Shown here: piece by piece, positions 3,667 to 32,539 of the stretch
Numbering within the stretch: position 1 is the stretch's first letter
How the letters are laid out: each line of letters begins with the position of its first letter
Assembly (NCBI GenBank): GCA_013812695.1
Contig: JACCSZ010000219.1
Location: 1-38,723, forward strand
Origin: Gemmatimonadales bacterium
GTDB lineage: Bacteria > Gemmatimonadota > Gemmatimonadetes > Gemmatimonadales > GWC2-71-9
Direction: 5' to 3'
Length of the DNA stretch: 38,723 nt
Notes under the pieces: model-generated
Told to the model about the DNA's origin: nothing
Seen by the model: the letters and a program-made list of their open reading frames with translations, nothing else
Databases searched by the model: none
Made by a program: the position numbers and the translations under genes

Positions 3667-4907
3667 CAGCCCGTGACCGTGGCGCGCTTCACGAGCGGCT
3701 TGGCGCTGTGCTGCCGCCGGTTGGAGCCCTTGATGAAGACCCCGCTGTCCAGCAGCCCGAAGACCAGAAACGCCACCACGACGTTCACCCCGAGCAGGGC
3801 GAGCGAGCGGAGCTTGGGATCGGTGATCCCGGCGACGTGCTCGATGCCATAGATGGCCGTGCAGATCACCATGATGTAGGCCAGCGCGATCGGCATCAGC
3901 ACCTTCCATCCGAGCGCCATGAGCTGGTCGTACCGGAATCGCGGCAGGGTCCACCGGATCCACATCACGAAGAAGATCCAGAACATCAGCTTGAGGAAGA
4001 AAAAGGCCCCCGTGGCGATGGTCTGCAGCAGTCCGCCCTGTTCGTCCCAGCGGCCCGGGATGTCCCAGCCTCCGAAAAACAGGGTCGTGACCATGGCGCA
4101 GACCGTCACCACGTTCGCGTATTCGGCGATGAAGAAGAGCGAGAACTTCATCGCGCTGTACTCGGTGTGATACCCCGCAATCAGCTCCGACTCGGCCTCG
4201 GGCAGGTCGAACGGGAGCCGGTTGGTCTCGGCGAATCCCGAGATGAGGAAGATGAAGAACGACAGGAACAGCGGCAGGACGTACCACAGGCCGGCCTGCT
4301 GGTCCCGGATGATGGCCCCGAAGCCCACGTTTCCGCTGATGAGGAGGACAGGGATGAGGCTCAGACCCATCGCCACCTCGTACGAGATCATCTGCGCCGT
4401 GGCGCGAAGCCCCCCGAGAAGCGCGTATTTGCTGTTCGACGACCACCCCGCCAGCGCGATCCCGTAGACGCCCATGGAGCTGATAGCCAGCACGAACAGG
4501 AAGCCGATGGGCAGATCGGCCACGACCATCGGGAGTGGGCCGTGGTAGGCGAAGGGGCCGAGCGGACCGAGGGTGACGTCGAAATCCACCGGCAGGGGGG
4601 CGGCGAACGGGATCACGGCCGACAGCATGAGGGCCGGAATGAACGCCAGCGCGGGGGCCAGGACGAACAGCCAGCGGTTGGCGAGCGCCGGGGAGGTTTC
4701 CTCCTTGAGGATGTTCTTGACACCGTCGGCGGCCGGCTGCAACAGGCCGGCCCAGCCCACCCGGTTGGGCCCGCGCCGGTTCTGCATCCACGCGCTGACC
4801 TTGCGCTCCATCAGCGTGAGGAGCGCCACGCCGACCAGGATGACGGTGAAGACGAAGAGCATCTTGAGGACGCTCAGCAGAATGAACCCCTTCATCTCCG
4901 GGGTCAT
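3666..4907 (-). CDS. nuoH: NADH-quinone oxidoreductase subunit H
   Basis: [20 protein letters not shown]...[39 protein letters not shown]; typical NuoH. Confidence 0.96.
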
Positions 4908-6505
4908 CGCGCGGCGCCTTCCGCGCGTCCTGGCACGGGCGCGGATCCAGTCCGAAGGACCCGGCCGGTGTATCCGATATCCCCATGCCCGAGGCCGGCG
5001 AAGACGGGCCACCGCTCGCCAAGCAGCTCGAACGCTTCCGCTGCGGTGGACGGCGCGTCGGCGCTCGGGCCAGGTCCGGCGAGCACTTCGCCGGCAATCC
5101 ACCACGCGGGACGCGCCATGCCCGGCTGCGATTTGGCCTGCTGATAGCGCTGGATGCGGTGGTCCCGGTTCACGTAGGTGCCGTTCTCCTCCGCCATCGT
5201 GGTGACCGGCAGCACCAGCTCGACGTTCCTGAGGGCATCCGCGATCACGGTGCCCAGGAGGACGACCATGCCGGGCGCCGCGGCCAGCGCGGCCTCGTCG
5301 GCTTGGTCGAGGTCCGCGTCCAGGACGATCACCACGGCGGCGGAGAGTGCCTGGCGCATGGCGGCGGCCCACTGTGGCGTATAGCCGAGCAGCTCGGCCC
5401 CGGCCAGGTTCGGCGCCCGCTCGCGGCGGAGCGCCAGGTTGGGCACGCCGGACAGCGGGGCCTCCTCGCCCAGCGGCACCTGCACGGCGGCGGCCACCTC
5501 GAAGCGATCCACGAGCCGGCGCACCAGTCCGAGCGATTCCGTCGACGCGCGCCCGGTCGCCAGGATGACCGCGGAGCCGCTGGCGCCGCGCAGCACCTGC
5601 TCGAACCGGGCGAGCGCGGTGTCCCAGTCGGTCGCCGTGTGGCGGGCGCCGTCGCGCACGAGCGGCGCCTCGATGCGGTCGCCACGATTCATCCAGCGGT
5701 AGTTGGCGCGGCCGTAGTCGCACATGAAGTGGCGGTTGACCTCGAGGTTCGGCCGCGGCCGGATGCGGATCACGACGTCGTCGCGGGTGTCGATGCTGAC
5801 GTTGCAGCCCTGGGTGCAGCCGGGGCAGACGCTGGCGGTCTTGTCGAGATCCCAGGCCCGCGCCTTGTGCAGGAAGTCTTTGGAGAGCAGCGAGCCGACC
5901 GGGCAGAGGTCGACGACGTTACCGGACCACGCGTGATCGAGCTTCTGCTCCTCGCTGATGCCGATGTAGGCCCGGTCGCCGCGCTCGCTCACGTTGAGCA
6001 CGGGGGCGTCGGCCACGTCCTCCATGAACCGGACGCAGCGGGTGCACAGGATACAGCGATTCGGCACGTAGAGGATGTCCGGACCGAAGTCCTCGACCGG
6101 GCTGTAGCGCTTGGCGTACTCGGCATACCGGGTGCCGGCGCGGCCTTCCTGGAATACGTAATCCTGCAGCTCGCACTCGCCCGCCTGATCGCAGATCGGG
6201 CAGTCCAGCGGATGGTTGATGAGCAGGAGCTCGAGTACGCCCTCGCGGGCCTTCTTGGCACTCGCGCTGTTGACGTGGACAACCTGGCCCTCGACCACCG
6301 ACGTGACGCAGGCGGGCATCAGCTTGGGCGCCTTTTCCACTTCCACCAGGCACATCCGGCACACCGCCGGGCTCGGCAGCGACGGATGGTAGCAGTAGTG
6401 CGGCACCAGCACGCCCGCCTGCTTGGCGGCCTCGATGATGGGCGTGCCCTTCGGCACGCTCACTGGCATACCGTCGATCGTCACGTTGACCAGTTCGTCG
6501 GCCAT
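4904..6505 (-). CDS. nuoG: NADH-quinone oxidoreductase subunit G (short form, about 533 aa)
   Basis: [73 protein letters not shown] cluster ligands; ATGA overlap with nuoH. Confidence 0.94.
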
Positions 6506-6536
6506 TGCGCTTTCCTGGTTGGGCTCGGGTGCTGTA

Positions 6537-6614
6537 TTCACCACGAAGGCACGAAGGACACGAAAACCATTCCGCACGCGGCCCCCCTCGTGGCCTTGGT
6601 GCCTTGGTGGTGAA
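6537..6614. repeat. Intergenic imperfect inverted repeat (TTCACCACGAAGGCACGAAGGACACGAA / TGGCCTTGGTGCCTTGGTGGTGAA) between nuoF and nuoG
   Basis: Left arm TTCACCACgAAGGCACgAAGGaCAC; reverse complement of right arm TTCACCACcAAGGCACcAAGGcCAC. The left arm also contains short tandem CACGAAGG units. Confidence 0.85.
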
Positions 6615-6627
6615 AGAGCATCGGCAC

Positions 6628-7935
6628 TCAAACCACCGCCATCGCCGGCTCGCGCGCGCCGGCGATGTACGCCTCGAACTCGGACCGGAACTTCTGGATG
6701 CCGCTCACGACCGGCGCGGCGCAGGAGTCGCTCAGGACGCAAATGGTCTTGCCGGTCATATTGTCGCAGAGGTCGAGGAGGAGCTGGAAATCGTCCTGCT
6801 TGCCCCGGCCGGTCAGGATACGCTCCAGGATCCGCGTCGTCCACGCCGTGCCCTCCCGGCACTGGGTGCACTGGGCGCAGCTCTCGTGGGCGTAGAAGCG
6901 GGCGAGGCGCCAGATCTGGTACACCATGTCGGTGGTGTCGTCCATGACGATCATGCCGGCCGAGCCGAGCATCGAGCCTTGCTCGACGATGCCTTCGTAA
7001 TCGAAGAGCGCCGCTTCGGCTTCCTCGCGCGTCATGATGGGCACCGAGCTGCCGCCCGGAATGATCGCCTTGAACGTCCGACCCGGCTTGGGCCCCCCGG
7101 CCATGTCGTACAGGATCTCCTTCACCGGCGTGCCCATCGTGACCTCGTAATTGCCGGGCCGCTGGATGTGCCCGCAGATCGAGATCAACTTGGTGCCGGT
7201 GCTCTTGGGGTTGCCGAGACACAGGGCCTTGTACCACGCGGCGCCGCGGTTCAGAATGTGGGGGACCGCGCTCAGCGTCTCGACGTTGTTGATCGTCGTC
7301 GGCATGCCGAACAGGCCGGCCACCGCCGGGAACGGCGGCTTGATCCGCGGGTTCCCGCGCTTCCCTTCGATCGAGTTCATCATCGCGGTCTCTTCGCCGC
7401 AGATGTACGCCCCGGCGCCGCGATGCAGCACGATGTCCACCCGCTTCCCGCTCCCCAGCGCGTCGGCCCCGAGCGCACCCATCGCGTAGGCCTGCTCCAC
7501 CGCCGCCGACATGACCTTCCACGGCTCGGTGAACTCGCCGCGGATGTAGAGGTAGCACCGCTCCGCCCCGATGGCGTACGCCGCGATCGCGCACCCCTCG
7601 ATGAGGGCGTGCGGCGTCCAGCGCATGATCTCCCGGTCCTTGAACGTTCCGGGCTCCGATTCATCCGCGTTGCATACGAGATAGTGCGGCTTGACCACGT
7701 CCTTCGGCATGAAGGACCACTTGAGTCCGGTCGGGAAGCCGGCGCCGCCACGGCCCCGGAGGCCCGACGCCTTGACTTCTTCCACGATGGCGTCGCGCGT
7801 CATCGCGAGCGCCCGCTTCAGCGCCTCGTAGCCGCCGCGCTCCACCCAGCCGTCGTACGTGCGCGCGCCGGCGTCACCGAAGTACCGGGACAGCACCACC
7901 GTCTCTTTCGAGTGGCTCGGATGCGGAAAGCCCAT
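6628..7935 (-). CDS. nuoF: NADH-quinone oxidoreductase subunit F
   Basis: GLRGRGGAGFPTGLKWSFMP, NADESEPGTFKDREIM, CGEETAMMNSIEGKRGNPRIKPPFPA, ESCAQCTQCREGTAW. Confidence 0.97.
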   Translation of the reverse strand: MGFPHPSHSKETVVLSRYFGDAGARTYDGWVERGGYEALKRALAMTRDAIVEEVKASGLRGRGGAGFPTGLKWSFMPKDVVKPHYLVCNADESEPGTFKDREIMRWTPHALIEGCAIAAYAIGAERCYLYIRGEFTEPWKVMSAAVEQAYAMGALGADALGSGKRVDIVLHRGAGAYICGEETAMMNSIEGKRGNPRIKPPFPAVAGLFGMPTTINNVETLSAVPHILNRGAAWYKALCLGNPKSTGTKLISICGHIQRPGNYEVTMGTPVKEILYDMAGGPKPGRTFKAIIPGGSSVPIMTREEAEAALFDYEGIVEQGSMLGSAGMIVMDDTTDMVYQIWRLARFYAHESCAQCTQCREGTAWTTRILERILTGRGKQDDFQLLLDLCDNMTGKTICVLSDSCAAPVVSGIQKFRSEFEAYIAGAREPAMAVV

Positions 7936-8459
7936 TACGGGAACCTCTGCAGGATGCCCGCGACCTTGTCGGGGGTCACGTCCTCGATGAAGTCGTCGTC
8001 GACCATGATCGGCGTGGGAAAGCCGCAGGCGCCCAGGCACTCGACCTCGATGACCGTGAACCGGTCGTCGGGACTGGTGGCCCCCAGTTCGACGCAGCCG
8101 GTGGCCGCGAGCAGTGCCTTCACCACATCCTCCGCACCGCAGATGTTGCACGGTGACGTGGTGCAGACCTGAATGAAGTGGCGGCCCACTGGATGGGTGT
8201 GGTACATGGTGTAGAACGTGACCACGCCCTTCACGTAGGCCGGGGTCAGGTCCAGCGCTTCGGCCACTTCGCCGATGTCCGTCTCCGAGATCCAGCCCCT
8301 GACCTCCTGGACCATCCAGAGCGCGGGCAGCAGGCATGCCTGCTTGGTCGGATAGCGGGCGAACAGCTCCTCCAGTTTCGTTCGCGTCTCGCCCACGAAC
8401 ACCGGATCCTGCGCGGCCGGCGTGGCGCCGTGGCTTCCGTGCGCCTGGTGCGAGGTCAT
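7935..8459 (-). CDS. nuoE: NADH-quinone oxidoreductase subunit E
   Basis: VCTTSPCNICGAEDVV and VECLGACGFPTPIMVDDDF 2Fe-2S thioredoxin-like motifs. Confidence 0.95.
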   Translation of the reverse strand: MTSHQAHGSHGATPAAQDPVFVGETRTKLEELFARYPTKQACLLPALWMVQEVRGWISETDIGEVAEALDLTPAYVKGVVTFYTMYHTHPVGRHFIQVCTTSPCNICGAEDVVKALLAATGCVELGATSPDDRFTVIEVECLGACGFPTPIMVDDDFIEDVTPDKVAGILQRFP

Positions 8460-27601: not shown

Positions 27602-28714
27602 GGGGTTGGCGTTCGCGGCGAGGGCGCCTCGGCCAATCGACGCCATGAATTCGGCGAAGTGGGGAAAGGCGTCGTGGGGGCCGGGCGCAGCCTCCGGGTG
27701 ATACTGCACGGCGAACAACGGCAGCTCCCTGTGCCGAACGCCTTCGATCGTACCGTCGTTCAGGTTGAGGTGGGTCACCTCGAGCGCGGGCGCGCCCGGA
27801 ACGCCGTCCACGTCGCCAACCACCGCGAAACCATGGTTTTGCGTGGTGATGAGCACGTGTCCCGCGCGGACGTCTCGCACGGGATGATTTCCGCCCCGAT
27901 GGCCATAGGACAGCTTGGCGGTAGCGCCCCCGAACGCGAGACCCACGAGCTGGTGGCCCAGGCAGATGCCGAAGGTCGGGAGGCCGCCCTCCGCCAGCTC
28001 GCGGACGTTCGCCAGGGCGTACTCGACGGCCACCGGATCGCCGGGCCCGTTCGAAAGGAAGAGCCCATCAGGGTTTAGCCTGCGCACCATCGCGGACGGA
28101 AACTCCGCGGGCACTACGGTCACGCGGCAACCGGCCTGGACCAGCATGCGGACGATGTTTCGCTTGATGCCGTAGTCGTACGCCACGACGTGGGGCCCGC
28201 GGCCCTCGCTGTACGGCTCGCGAATGGTGGCGCGGGAGGCTAGGTCGAGCCCGTCCATCGACGGCGACGCGAGCAGTCGCGCCGTCAGCTCGTCGCCCGG
28301 CTGGCGCCCCTCGGCGATGACGCCGCGCATCGCGCCGCGCGCGCGCAGGTGGCGAGTGAGCCGACGCGTGTCGATGCCTTCGATGACCGGCACTGCGGCC
28401 TCGGCGAGCCATTCGTCCAGGCTGCCGGTCGCGCGCCAGTTCGAGGGATGGCGGCTCAACTCGCGCACGACTACGCCGGTCACCTGCGGTCGCGCCGACT
28501 CCATGTCCTCCACGTTCACACCGTAGTTGCCGATCATCGGCGCCGTCATCACGACGATCTGGCCGAGGTAGCTCGGATCGGTGAACGTCTCCTGATAGCC
28601 CGTGAGGTTGGTGGTGAAGACCACCTCGCCGAAGACCGGCTCGATCGGGCGCGCGGTGGTCCCCGAGAACCAGGCGCCGTCCTCGAGCAACACGAACGCG
28701 GGGCGATCCGTCAT
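27584..28714 (-). CDS. carA: Carbamoyl-phosphate synthase small subunit
   Basis: [36 protein letters not shown]...[16 protein letters not shown]...SNGPGDP...FGICLGHQL...[13 protein letters not shown]. Confidence 0.96.
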
Positions 28715-28739
28715 CCGGTCACCCCGCGGTCGAGCGGCG

Positions 28740-29177
28740 TCACGGCTTCGGGGTGCTCGCGGGAGGAGGGGCGGTCGACGGTGGCGTAGTCGCGGGCGAT
28801 TTCGCAGCGCCGGATGCGGGAGCGCCGGCGCTCGACGGCGCGGGCGCCGCTGCCGACCCCGCCGGCGGTGTACCGCCCAGCGGCAGCGGGGCGCTGGGCG
28901 CGGTGGCCGGCGTAGTGGCGCGAAGGCGCTCCTGCAGCGAGCTGGAGCCTCCGCCCCGGGGCACGAGCGAAAGCGCCAGGGCGAGCACGAGGAAGATTCC
29001 GCCGCACCACCAGGTGGCCTTGGTCAGCAGAGTGACCGCCTGGCGGCCGCCCAGGACGGTGTCGGTCGTAGCGCCGCCGAGCGAGGCGAGACCGCCACCC
29101 TGGCCGGCTTGCAGCAGCACGACCGCCGAGAGCAGCAGCGCGTCGATGATGAGCAGCGTGAGCAGAAATGCGAACAT
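28740..29177 (-). CDS. secG: Preprotein translocase subunit SecG with long Pro/Ala/Ser-rich tail
   Basis: [78 protein letters not shown]. Confidence 0.88.
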
Positions 29178-29201
29178 GGACTCCCTCCTGGGCAGCCGGG
29201 A

Positions 29202-29230
29202 AGTTTACCCGCCGGCGGAGTTCGGGTCAA
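29202..29230 (-). promoter_or_regulatory. Possible sigma70-type promoter for secG
   Basis: Minus strand TTGACC - 17 nt - TAAACT, about 25 bp upstream of the secG ATG. Confidence 0.45.
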
Positions 29231-29336
29231 CTCGGGCAGCGCCGGTTGTCCGCGTGCGGGGTGGACCGACATGTTTGGCGGTCAATCGCCCACGTGCACC
29301 TGGCGGGCGCCCATGCTTCGCTTTCCCGAGATCGCC

Positions 29337-30980
29337 ATGGCTCCGCACCCGCTCGCCGGCCGCCCTGCCCCGTCCGAGCTTCTGGTGGACGTCGCACAGC
29401 TCGAACGGCTGTATTACGAGGGTCGGCCCGACGCCGGACAGCCCGCGCAGCGGGTGAGCTTCGGCACGAGCGGCCACCGAGGAACCCCCATCGACGCGAG
29501 CTTCACCGAAGCGCACATTCTCGCCATCGCGCAGGCGATCGCCGAATACCGACAGGGCCAGGGCATTACCGGTCCGCTCATCCTGGGCAAGGATACGCAC
29601 GCGGTGTCGCGCCCGGCCGAGCGGAGCGCGCTCGAGGTGCTCGCGGGCAACGGCGTCACGGTCATCGTCGAGCGCGACGACGGCTACACGCCCACGCCCG
29701 CCGTCTCGCGGGCCATCCTCGCCTGGAATGAGGGCCGCGACTCGGGACTCGCCGACGGGATCGTCATCACCCCGTCGCACAACCCGCCCTCCGATGGCGG
29801 CTTCAAGTACAACCCGCCGGACGGCGGCCCGGCCGACACCGCGGTCACGGCCTGGATTCAGGAGCGCGCCAACGCTCTGCTGGTCGCCGGCAACGCCGGA
29901 GTACGACGCCTGAGCCTCGAGCGCGCGCGTGCCGCGGCCACGACGCACGAGGAAGACCTGGTCGAGCCTTACGTCGCGGGGCTCGGGAGCGCCATTGATC
30001 TTGAAGCTGTGCGGTCGGCCGGCGTCCGCATCGGGGTCGATCCGCTCGGGGGGGCCTCGGTGGCCTACTGGCCGCGGATCGCCGAGCGCTACGGGCTGGA
30101 CCTCACCGTCGTCAACGATCGGCTCGATCCCACCTTCGGCTTCATGCCCGTCGATCACGACGGCAAGATCCGGATGGACTGCTCGAGCCCCTGGGCGATG
30201 GCCGGGCTCGTCGGCCTGCAGGATCGCTTCGCGGTGTCCTGGGGGAACGATCCGGACGCGGACCGGCACGGCATCGTCACTCCGGCCGCGGGGCTTCTGA
30301 ATCCGAATCACTACCTGGCGGTGGCCATCGGGTATCTGCTCGGGCACCGCCCGTCCTGGCCGCTCGCGGCGCGGGTGGGCAAGACGCTGGTGTCGAGCGC
30401 GCTGATCGACCGCGTGGTCGCGGACCTTGGCCGCGAGTTGCTCGAGACGCCGGTCGGGTTCAAGTGGTTCGCGCCGGGCCTGTACGACGGAAGCTGCTGC
30501 TTCGGAGGCGAGGAGAGCGCCGGCGCCAGCTTCCTCCGCCGCGATGGCGGGGTGTGGACGACGGACAAGGACGGGCTGCTGCTGGGTCTGCTGGCGGCGG
30601 AGATTACGGCGGTCACGGGCCGCGATCCGGGTGCGCACTACTCGGAGCTGACGGCTCGCCTCGGTGGGCCAGTCTACACCCGGATCGACACCCCGTGCTC
30701 CCCGGCCGAGAAGGCGGGGTTCAAGCGCTTGACGCCGGAGTCGATCACGGCGACCACGCTCGCCGGCGATCCGATCCAATCGAAGTTGACTCGGGCGCCG
30801 GGAAACGGCGCACCGATTGGCGGGCTCAAGGTGACGACGGCGGAGGGCTGGTTCGCGGCGCGGCCAAGCGGGACGGAAAACGTCTACAAGCTGTATGCGG
30901 AGAGCTTCCGGGATGCGGGGCACCTGCAGCGGATCGTGGAGGAGGCGAGGGGGATGGTGGGAGGAGTCGTCAGCGTCTGA
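29337..30980 (+). CDS. pgm: Phosphoglucomutase, alpha-D-glucose phosphate-specific
   Basis: [31 protein letters not shown]...[52 protein letters not shown]...[28 protein letters not shown]. Supplied ORF over-extended upstream; an ATG at 29313 is an alternative start. Confidence 0.95.
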
Positions 30981-31191
30981 AGCGGGCAGCGACGTTTGAA
31001 GCGAACCGGGCCTTGGCCGAGGAAGATCTGGCAGGCGCCGATGTAATCCGAGAGCCGCTCAAGGCCGCGGCAGGTCGGGCGGCGGCGATGTAGCGCGCGA
31101 GCTCGGCGGCCCGGTTGAGCGCCAAGGGCGCCCAGATAACCCTCACGCCGAGGCCTAACCTGCGCCAGATCGTCTCTCCGCAATCGCTGCC

Positions 31192-31284
31192 GCCCAACGG
31201 ACCGCGCTTGAGCTGCGGCGCATTGGTGAAAGAGTAGTCATTCACCAATCTGCGTGCACCGCCAGCTTCAGGCGCTTGTTAAGC
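31192..31284 (-). repeat. attC-like integron recombination site (93 bp, imperfect palindrome)
   Basis: Minus strand: GCTTAAC (RYYYAAC) ... CGCCTGAAGCTGGCGG ... ATTGGTGAA-loop-TTCACCAAT ... CCGCAGCTCAAGCG ... GTTGGGC (GTTRRRY). Arms pair with two bulged bases on one strand. Confidence 0.75.
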
Positions 31285-31644
31285 GGCAGCCCTGGGTTCA
31301 GGGGCGTCGTACCGGCGCACGAAGCATTCGAGATCGCGCCCGGCATTCCCCAGCCCGAGATGGGAAACCAGTTGCACACCATGCCGCCGCAGGTCACGGG
31401 AAAGAAAGGCGCCTGCGTCACGCCCATCATGAAGCGGAGGACCAGCACCCCAGGCGAACCCTCCCAGGACGACACCGAGCTGCACGGGGGACAGCTCCAG
31501 GTCCGCGGCCATCGGGGCGCCGGCCACGGACATGTTGGTCCGGAGCAGGTAGGCGACAAAGCTCATGATCGCGATGAGGGCGCAGACCCGCCAGCGGACC
31601 GACGTGGGTCGTTCGGAGCGGCTGATTCCGGCATCGAGATTCAC
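31285..31644 (-). pseudogene. Truncated/frameshifted MFS transporter (N-terminal remnant)
   Basis: Frame 1 from GTG at 31644: ...RWRVCALIAIMSFVAYLLRTNMSVAGAPMAADLELSPVQLGVVLGGFAWG; homologous text resumes in another frame as VLVLRFMMGVTQAPFFPVTCGGMVCNWFPISGWGMPGAISNA, then ends near the attC-like site. Confidence 0.75.
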
Positions 31645-31654
31645 GTCGCCCTCC

Positions 31655-32539
31655 CTAGTCGAGGTCGTCGACCGAGCGGGGCCAGTCCTCGCGCAGGATG
31701 CGCGACATCGCGCGGTCGGCCAGCAGCCGGCCGCCGGTCTGACAGCGCGCGCAATAGTTGGTCTCGTTGGCCACGTACCGTATGCGCTGCACCGGCGCGC
31801 CGCAGTCGGGGCACGGCTTTCCGTACCGTCCGTGGACCGCCATGCCTTCCCGAAAGGCGGTGACCTTGTCCGGGAATCCTTCGCCTGCCTCGGCGCGCAG
31901 GCGCTCGGTCCACTCCAGCAGGGTCACCCGGGTGGCGTCGAACAGTCGGCGTACCTCGTCCGGGCCCAGCTTCCGCGTCAGGGCGAGTGGCGACAGCCTC
32001 GCCCGGTGGAGAATCTCGTCCGAGTACGCGTTTCCGATCCCGCTGAAGAGTCGCGGATCGGTCAGAGCGCGCTTGAGCGTGTGGTTCTGGCTCACGAGCC
32101 GGGCCTCGAACGCGTCGGGCCGAGCATCGAGGACCTCGAGGCCTCCGCGGTCGAACTCGCTGAGGGCGGCTTGGCCCTGCACCAGATGCACCGACGCCCG
32201 GCGAGTGGTTCCGGCCTCGGTGAGCACGAGGGTGCCAGTGGAAAACTCGAACAGCGCGAGGGCCAGCTTTCCGGGCGGCTTGGCGCCGGCTGCGTGCCAG
32301 CGCAAGCGTCCCGCGATCATCAGGTGGATCACGACGAACCGGTCGTGCTCCAGCGCCAGGACGATGCGCTTGCCGACGCGGCGCAGGCCCGTGACGGCAC
32401 TGCCCACGAGCTCGGCCGGCGCGGGCGCGACCGAGCGGAGCACGAACGGGTTCCGGAAGGTGAGTCGCTCGAGCGGCCGGCCGAGCACCCGGGGGGCCAG
32501 GCAGTCGAGATAGACCGCGATGTCGGGGAACTCGGGCAT
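31655..32539 (-). CDS. Fpg/Nei-family DNA glycosylase (MutM-like)
   Basis: MPEFPDIAVYLDCLAPRVLG...HLMIAGRLRWH...SGIGNAYSDEILHRARLSPL...zinc finger CPDCGAPVQRIRYVANETNYCARCQ. Confidence 0.9.
   Translation of the reverse strand: MPEFPDIAVYLDCLAPRVLGRPLERLTFRNPFVLRSVAPAPAELVGSAVTGLRRVGKRIVLALEHDRFVVIHLMIAGRLRWHAAGAKPPGKLALALFEFSTGTLVLTEAGTTRRASVHLVQGQAALSEFDRGGLEVLDARPDAFEARLVSQNHTLKRALTDPRLFSGIGNAYSDEILHRARLSPLALTRKLGPDEVRRLFDATRVTLLEWTERLRAEAGEGFPDKVTAFREGMAVHGRYGKPCPDCGAPVQRIRYVANETNYCARCQTGGRLLADRAMSRILREDWPRSVDDLD

Follow-up and report, generated by a model that had tools for sequence, protein, structure and literature searches.

A single attC site beside toxin-antitoxin gene fragments between pgm and fpg in a Gemmatimonadales genome, the probable relic of an eroded cassette insertion

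The window analysed here is a stretch of 38,723 nucleotides (38.7 kb; contig JACCSZ010000219.1) from the draft genome of a Gemmatimonadales bacterium. A phosphoglucomutase open frame (pgm, 28602-30980, plus strand), whose true start is probably further inside, and a gene for an fpg-type DNA glycosylase (fpg, 31655-32539, minus strand) form the conserved flanks of the region of interest and were identified by Pfam and by synteny; the best named match of the Fpg protein is from a Gemmatimonadaceae MAG (70%). The order and the orientation of pgm and fpg are common to the window and the same-genus relatives. Between them lies a truncated and frameshifted MFS transporter gene (31325-31644, minus strand), recognised from the intact frames of 517-519 codons in two relatives, G002 and G008. 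About 158 bp have been deleted internally at 31447/31448, where the frame is shifted, and the 3' part is lost; the blastn homology ends at 31349, with a weaker resemblance as far as about 31325, and the reading frame runs to a stop codon, TAA, that is part of the GCTTAAC box of an attC site. The first-pass annotation had described the surroundings of this site as a housekeeping neighbourhood; they are not made up of housekeeping genes alone, as the attC lies among the remains of the truncated MFS gene and fragments of two toxin-antitoxin genes.

The attC site occupies positions 31192-31284, with the minus strand as its top strand. On that strand, the boxes GCTTAAC (R'', of the form RYYYAAC; 31278-31284), which is GCCTAAC in the consensus of the relatives, and GTTGGGC (R', of the form GTTRRRY; 31192-31198), the predicted cleavage box, can be read directly and bound an imperfect palindrome of 93 bp. 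The L''-side arm GCGCCTGAAGCTGGCGG (31259-31275, minus strand) carries two unpaired bases, about 5-6 nt apart and present on the GCTTAAC side only, and sites with the same bulged arm are found in the relatives. The L'-side arm, CCGCAGCTCAAGCGC on the minus strand (31204-31218), was read directly and, like the R' box, is borne out by the alignment with the relatives. Between the arms is the variable terminal structure (31222-31249, given without strand), seen both by direct reading and by folding, with a 9-bp stem, ATTGGTGAA/TTCACCAAT (halves 31222-31230/31241-31249), and a 10-nt loop. The boxes, the arms with their one-sided bulges, the stem and the loop all lie where the first-pass annotation had drawn them from the sequence. 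In known attC sites, the extrahelical bases are likewise confined to the R''-L'' arm (PMC2727003); the first of them differs from the usual bottom-strand G both in the window site and in the consensus of its relatives. Since the bulged bases lie on the GCTTAAC arm and the open reading frames of the relatives' arrays run mostly in the attC top-strand sense, the minus strand is the cassette-sense strand. Folding of the region as single-stranded DNA gave z-scores of -5.7 (minus strand) and -5.2 (plus strand, with flanks), none of 200 shuffles being as stable, and the bottom strand forms a hairpin with a central spacer and a terminal structure, the pairing of its R boxes being imperfect. The terminal stem at 31222-31249 is a perfect 9-bp hairpin, while the terminal structures of the relatives' attC sites are less paired. 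A second R'-like motif, GTTAGGC, is present on the minus strand at 31153-31159, in the stretch that separates the attC from the ParE fragment; no partner arms were noted for it.

DNA searches were performed in 61 genomes, comprising the window's own and 60 relatives, and arrays near native IntI in the relatives served as the reference, being closer than the attC sites of class 1 integrons. Homologues of the window site with 75-82% identity over about 100 nt were found in tandem, on one strand, in three genomes of the same family (G035, G019 and G027), where a first covariance model, which included the window site, placed an attC every 0.5-1.5 kb. The R'', L'', L' and R' boxes are almost unchanged across the 23 array sites aligned, and 43 of the 81 family genomes scanned have attC matches at E <= 1e-8. 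A second covariance model, a check of the kind proposed in the first-pass annotation, was built from 30 attC sites of relatives with the window left out, and the window was scanned with filters off. By this window-free model, which captures homology to the cassette-array sites in both sequence and structure, the window attC scores 75.1 bits (E 8.5e-21) on the minus strand and about 9 bits on the plus strand. The runner-up place in the 38.7 kb reaches 13.1 bits, and a chance palindrome is thereby excluded. An Rfam scan of the window gave no matches. On contig C80 of G035, an array of the same attC type begins about 0.6 kb from an IntI match. The covariance score, together with the homologues in family cassette arrays, one of them near IntI, establishes that the palindrome at 31192-31284 is a genuine attC of the type used by the integrons of this family, as had been suspected at first sight. 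It shares with the array sites of G035, G019 and G027 the boxes, the arms, the bulged bases and the length class (90-93 nt). However, those sites stand in tandem with intact cassette genes, whereas the window attC stands alone, is changed at 10 conserved positions and has the perfect terminal stem.

The IntI match on C80 of G035 spans only model positions 59-276, the gene (L022, 6495-7309) being apparently split between two frames, and it is oriented like the cassettes, which is the arrangement of 'inverted' integrases. An apparently intact IntI on contig C3 of G030 (L181, 5729-6664) also has the direction of its cassettes, with attC sites at 7583-7735 and 8169-8321, while IntI and cassettes are divergent in G025 (L041). 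The orientation of the integrase thus seems to vary within the family.

The corresponding locus in same-genus relatives was examined for the site. In G002 an intact MFS gene lies between pgm and fpg, in G008 an intact MFS gene and further genes, and in G004 only about 90 bp separate the two flanking genes, the MFS homologue being on another contig; the covariance models detected no convincing attC at the pgm-fpg locus of any of the three. These comparisons bear on the possibility that the palindrome terminates transcription in both directions between the convergent pgm and MFS/fpg genes. A strong hairpin between convergent genes is what a terminator would present, but the stem is without a T-run, a terminator scan was silent at the hairpin, no hairpin occurs at the same place in G002, G008 and G004, and the sequence itself matches attC arrays, so that this explanation retains hardly any credit. 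An intrinsic terminator, as a stem-loop with a T-run conserved at the locus, was rejected because the T-run is missing and the relatives lack the structure; fixation as a terminator in all relatives, which had been raised at the outset as the finding that would speak against an attC, is not seen.

The window's own genome (G000) contains seven further, more divergent attC sites, two each on contigs C11, C304 and C434 and one on C393, which were identified by the first covariance model and all refound by the second. Boxes of the GCCTAAC/GTTAGGC type are present in five of these seven by direct pattern match, while the attC type of the window occurs once only in the assembly. No intI was found in the assembly (92% complete, 447 contigs), either above the cut-off or at E <= 1e-30, and the weaker recombinase matches look like Xer-type enzymes without the insert that distinguishes IntI, judging by gap sizes. 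It is possible that an intI exists in the genome and is missing from the assembly, which would be compatible with 447 contigs and 92% completeness. The designation of the site as an orphan, which came with a proposal to search the whole genome for copies and for intI, is therefore accurate as regards the single attC at the locus and the assembly without intI, but not for a genome with at least eight attC sites; 'lone' holds at the pgm-fpg locus and not genome-wide.

The state of the window attC was assessed over 71 conserved columns. It is changed at 10 of them, nine of the changes being transitions, as compared with 0-5 changes (median 1) in 29 of the 30 array sites of the relatives and 14 in the remaining one. 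On the plus strand, the R boxes have two A-C mismatches; in the best fold of the bare 93 nt they are unpaired, whereas they are paired in the relatives' sites tested, and two R-box positions remain open even when the flanks are included. These observations point to a site that has drifted or decayed, and the mispairing of the R boxes suggests that it would be used by IntI with low efficiency or not at all. Nevertheless, the window attC could be a divergent subtype rather than a decayed site: one altered base of the upper stem is matched by a compensating change of its partner, and comparable divergence is seen in one array site (L024:10097), both of which count against decay. The same data are relevant to the alternative that a lone cassette site or small CALIN is still in use here, an IntI from the unassembled part of the genome or from a neighbour acting on the window attC and the sites on C11, C304, C393 and C434. 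Both R boxes of the window still fit the consensus, most of the other sites in the genome keep boxes of the GCCTAAC/GTTAGGC type, IntI is common among the relatives (above the cut-off in 29 of the 61 genomes), and the assembly of the window's genome is about 92% complete. Set against these are the lack of IntI in G000, the many altered conserved positions and the bottom-strand pairing of the R boxes described above, and continued activity is considered unlikely.

Downstream of the attC, in the cassette sense, is a fragment of a ParE-family toxin gene (31063-31146, minus strand) encoding the N-terminal 28 residues or so, which match ParE proteins of relatives, most closely one in G062 (71% identity, E 2.2e-7). 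This homologue is a Pfam ParE_toxin (7.3e-18) and sits between two attC sites (L196, 996-1136 and 1830-1968). The fragment is directly abutted by the C-terminal end of a HicB-type antitoxin gene (30998-31063, plus strand), with 88% DNA identity over 66 bp (E 1.3e-17) to a UPF0150/HicB-like gene of G001 that precedes hicA (HicA 3e-12) and lies between two attC-like sites. Pfam gave no match for the unstitched open reading frames of the two remnants in the window, which were thus recognised through their homologues; a Pfam ParE match obtained only with a 53-residue query joined by hand from two frames is weak (E 0.039) and is taken as a hint only. About 60 bp within about 31325-30981 match nothing. 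The interval from about 31325 to 30981 is best read as cassette-derived fragments.

The most probable explanation, to which we assign a probability of about 0.83, is that the window attC is the only recognisable recombination site left of a cassette insertion, now eroded, in the pgm-fpg interval, a CALIN-like relic with a single attC; the initial suggestion of a lone attC or the edge of an integrase-less cassette cluster was close to this. A cassette or a short array would have inserted between pgm and fpg or within the MFS gene, either by off-target insertion by IntI, for which ordinary genome sites are known to be receptive (PMC8618304), or through the rearrangement of an array. Subsequent deletions may have joined the MFS remnant to the cassette end, with loss of the 3' part of the MFS gene and most of the next cassettes, and the attC would then have drifted. 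No upstream cassette boundary or insertion junction with GTT is visible at the locus, and off-target insertion and rearrangement are consequently indistinguishable here. As the folded bottom strand of attC is the substrate of IntI (PMC2727003), the plus strand would, given an IntI, be predicted to be cleaved within the GTTGGGC box. The single attC at the locus, the shortness of the ParE and HicB pieces and the missing upstream boundary count against this explanation. That the locus represents a cassette in the making, an attC having been joined directly to the end of the host MFS fragment as an early step, appears quite improbable; if true, it would show how chromosomal genes may gain an attC and become cassettes. 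The assembly might also have joined an array fragment into the pgm-fpg locus, as attC repeats are a recognised source of assembly difficulties (PMC9024848) and the genome is a draft of 447 contigs. However, both flanks have the order and the orientation found in the relatives, this attC type is single in the assembly and the debris has degenerated and does not look like the intact end of an array, which makes such an artefact very hard to credit.

The comparison with described classes supports the term CALIN-like for the eroded insertion. IntegronFinder 2 by default defines a CALIN by at least two clustered attC sites, though single-attC cases can be true positives (PMC9024848), and the proposed origins of CALINs, namely off-target insertion, intI loss and rearrangement (PMC8618304), fit the present locus. 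As in a CALIN, an attC and cassette-type genes occur with no integron-integrase nearby; unlike a CALIN, the window contains a single attC in its 38.7 kb, short of the minimum of two, and none of its cassette genes is intact. A complete integron, with intI, attI and an attC array, is not present in the window. Insertion of cassettes at genomic sites termed attG was reportedly described by Loot et al. in 2024 (cited in PMC11023631). The locus would resemble such insertions in having a cassette site among ordinary genes, outside an integron platform, and would differ from them in that an intact cassette is lacking and an insertion junction cannot be identified. Read as an eroded insertion, the locus would be one documented case of cassette material in place of part of a chromosomal gene, and would indicate that a lone attC noticed on visual inspection of a draft genome can be a true relic, which its lineage-specific type and the surrounding toxin-antitoxin debris make recognisable. 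Integrons have already been reported in Gemmatimonadota (PMC8618304), and the find therefore contributes further detail and not a new system.

Few kinds of gene occur in cassettes as often as those of toxin-antitoxin pairs (PMC8618304), and further examples were observed in the genomes examined. Contig C74 of G001 (L029, 4836-6700) has two HicA-type cassettes near attC sites, its hicBA pair (about 6150-6557) being opposite to the cassette sense. On contig C304 of the window's own genome (L192), the attC sites at 4698-4794 and 6021-6163 flank open reading frames at 5383-5730 and 5508-6026 (plus strand), which read like a putative HigB/HigA-type toxin-antitoxin pair.
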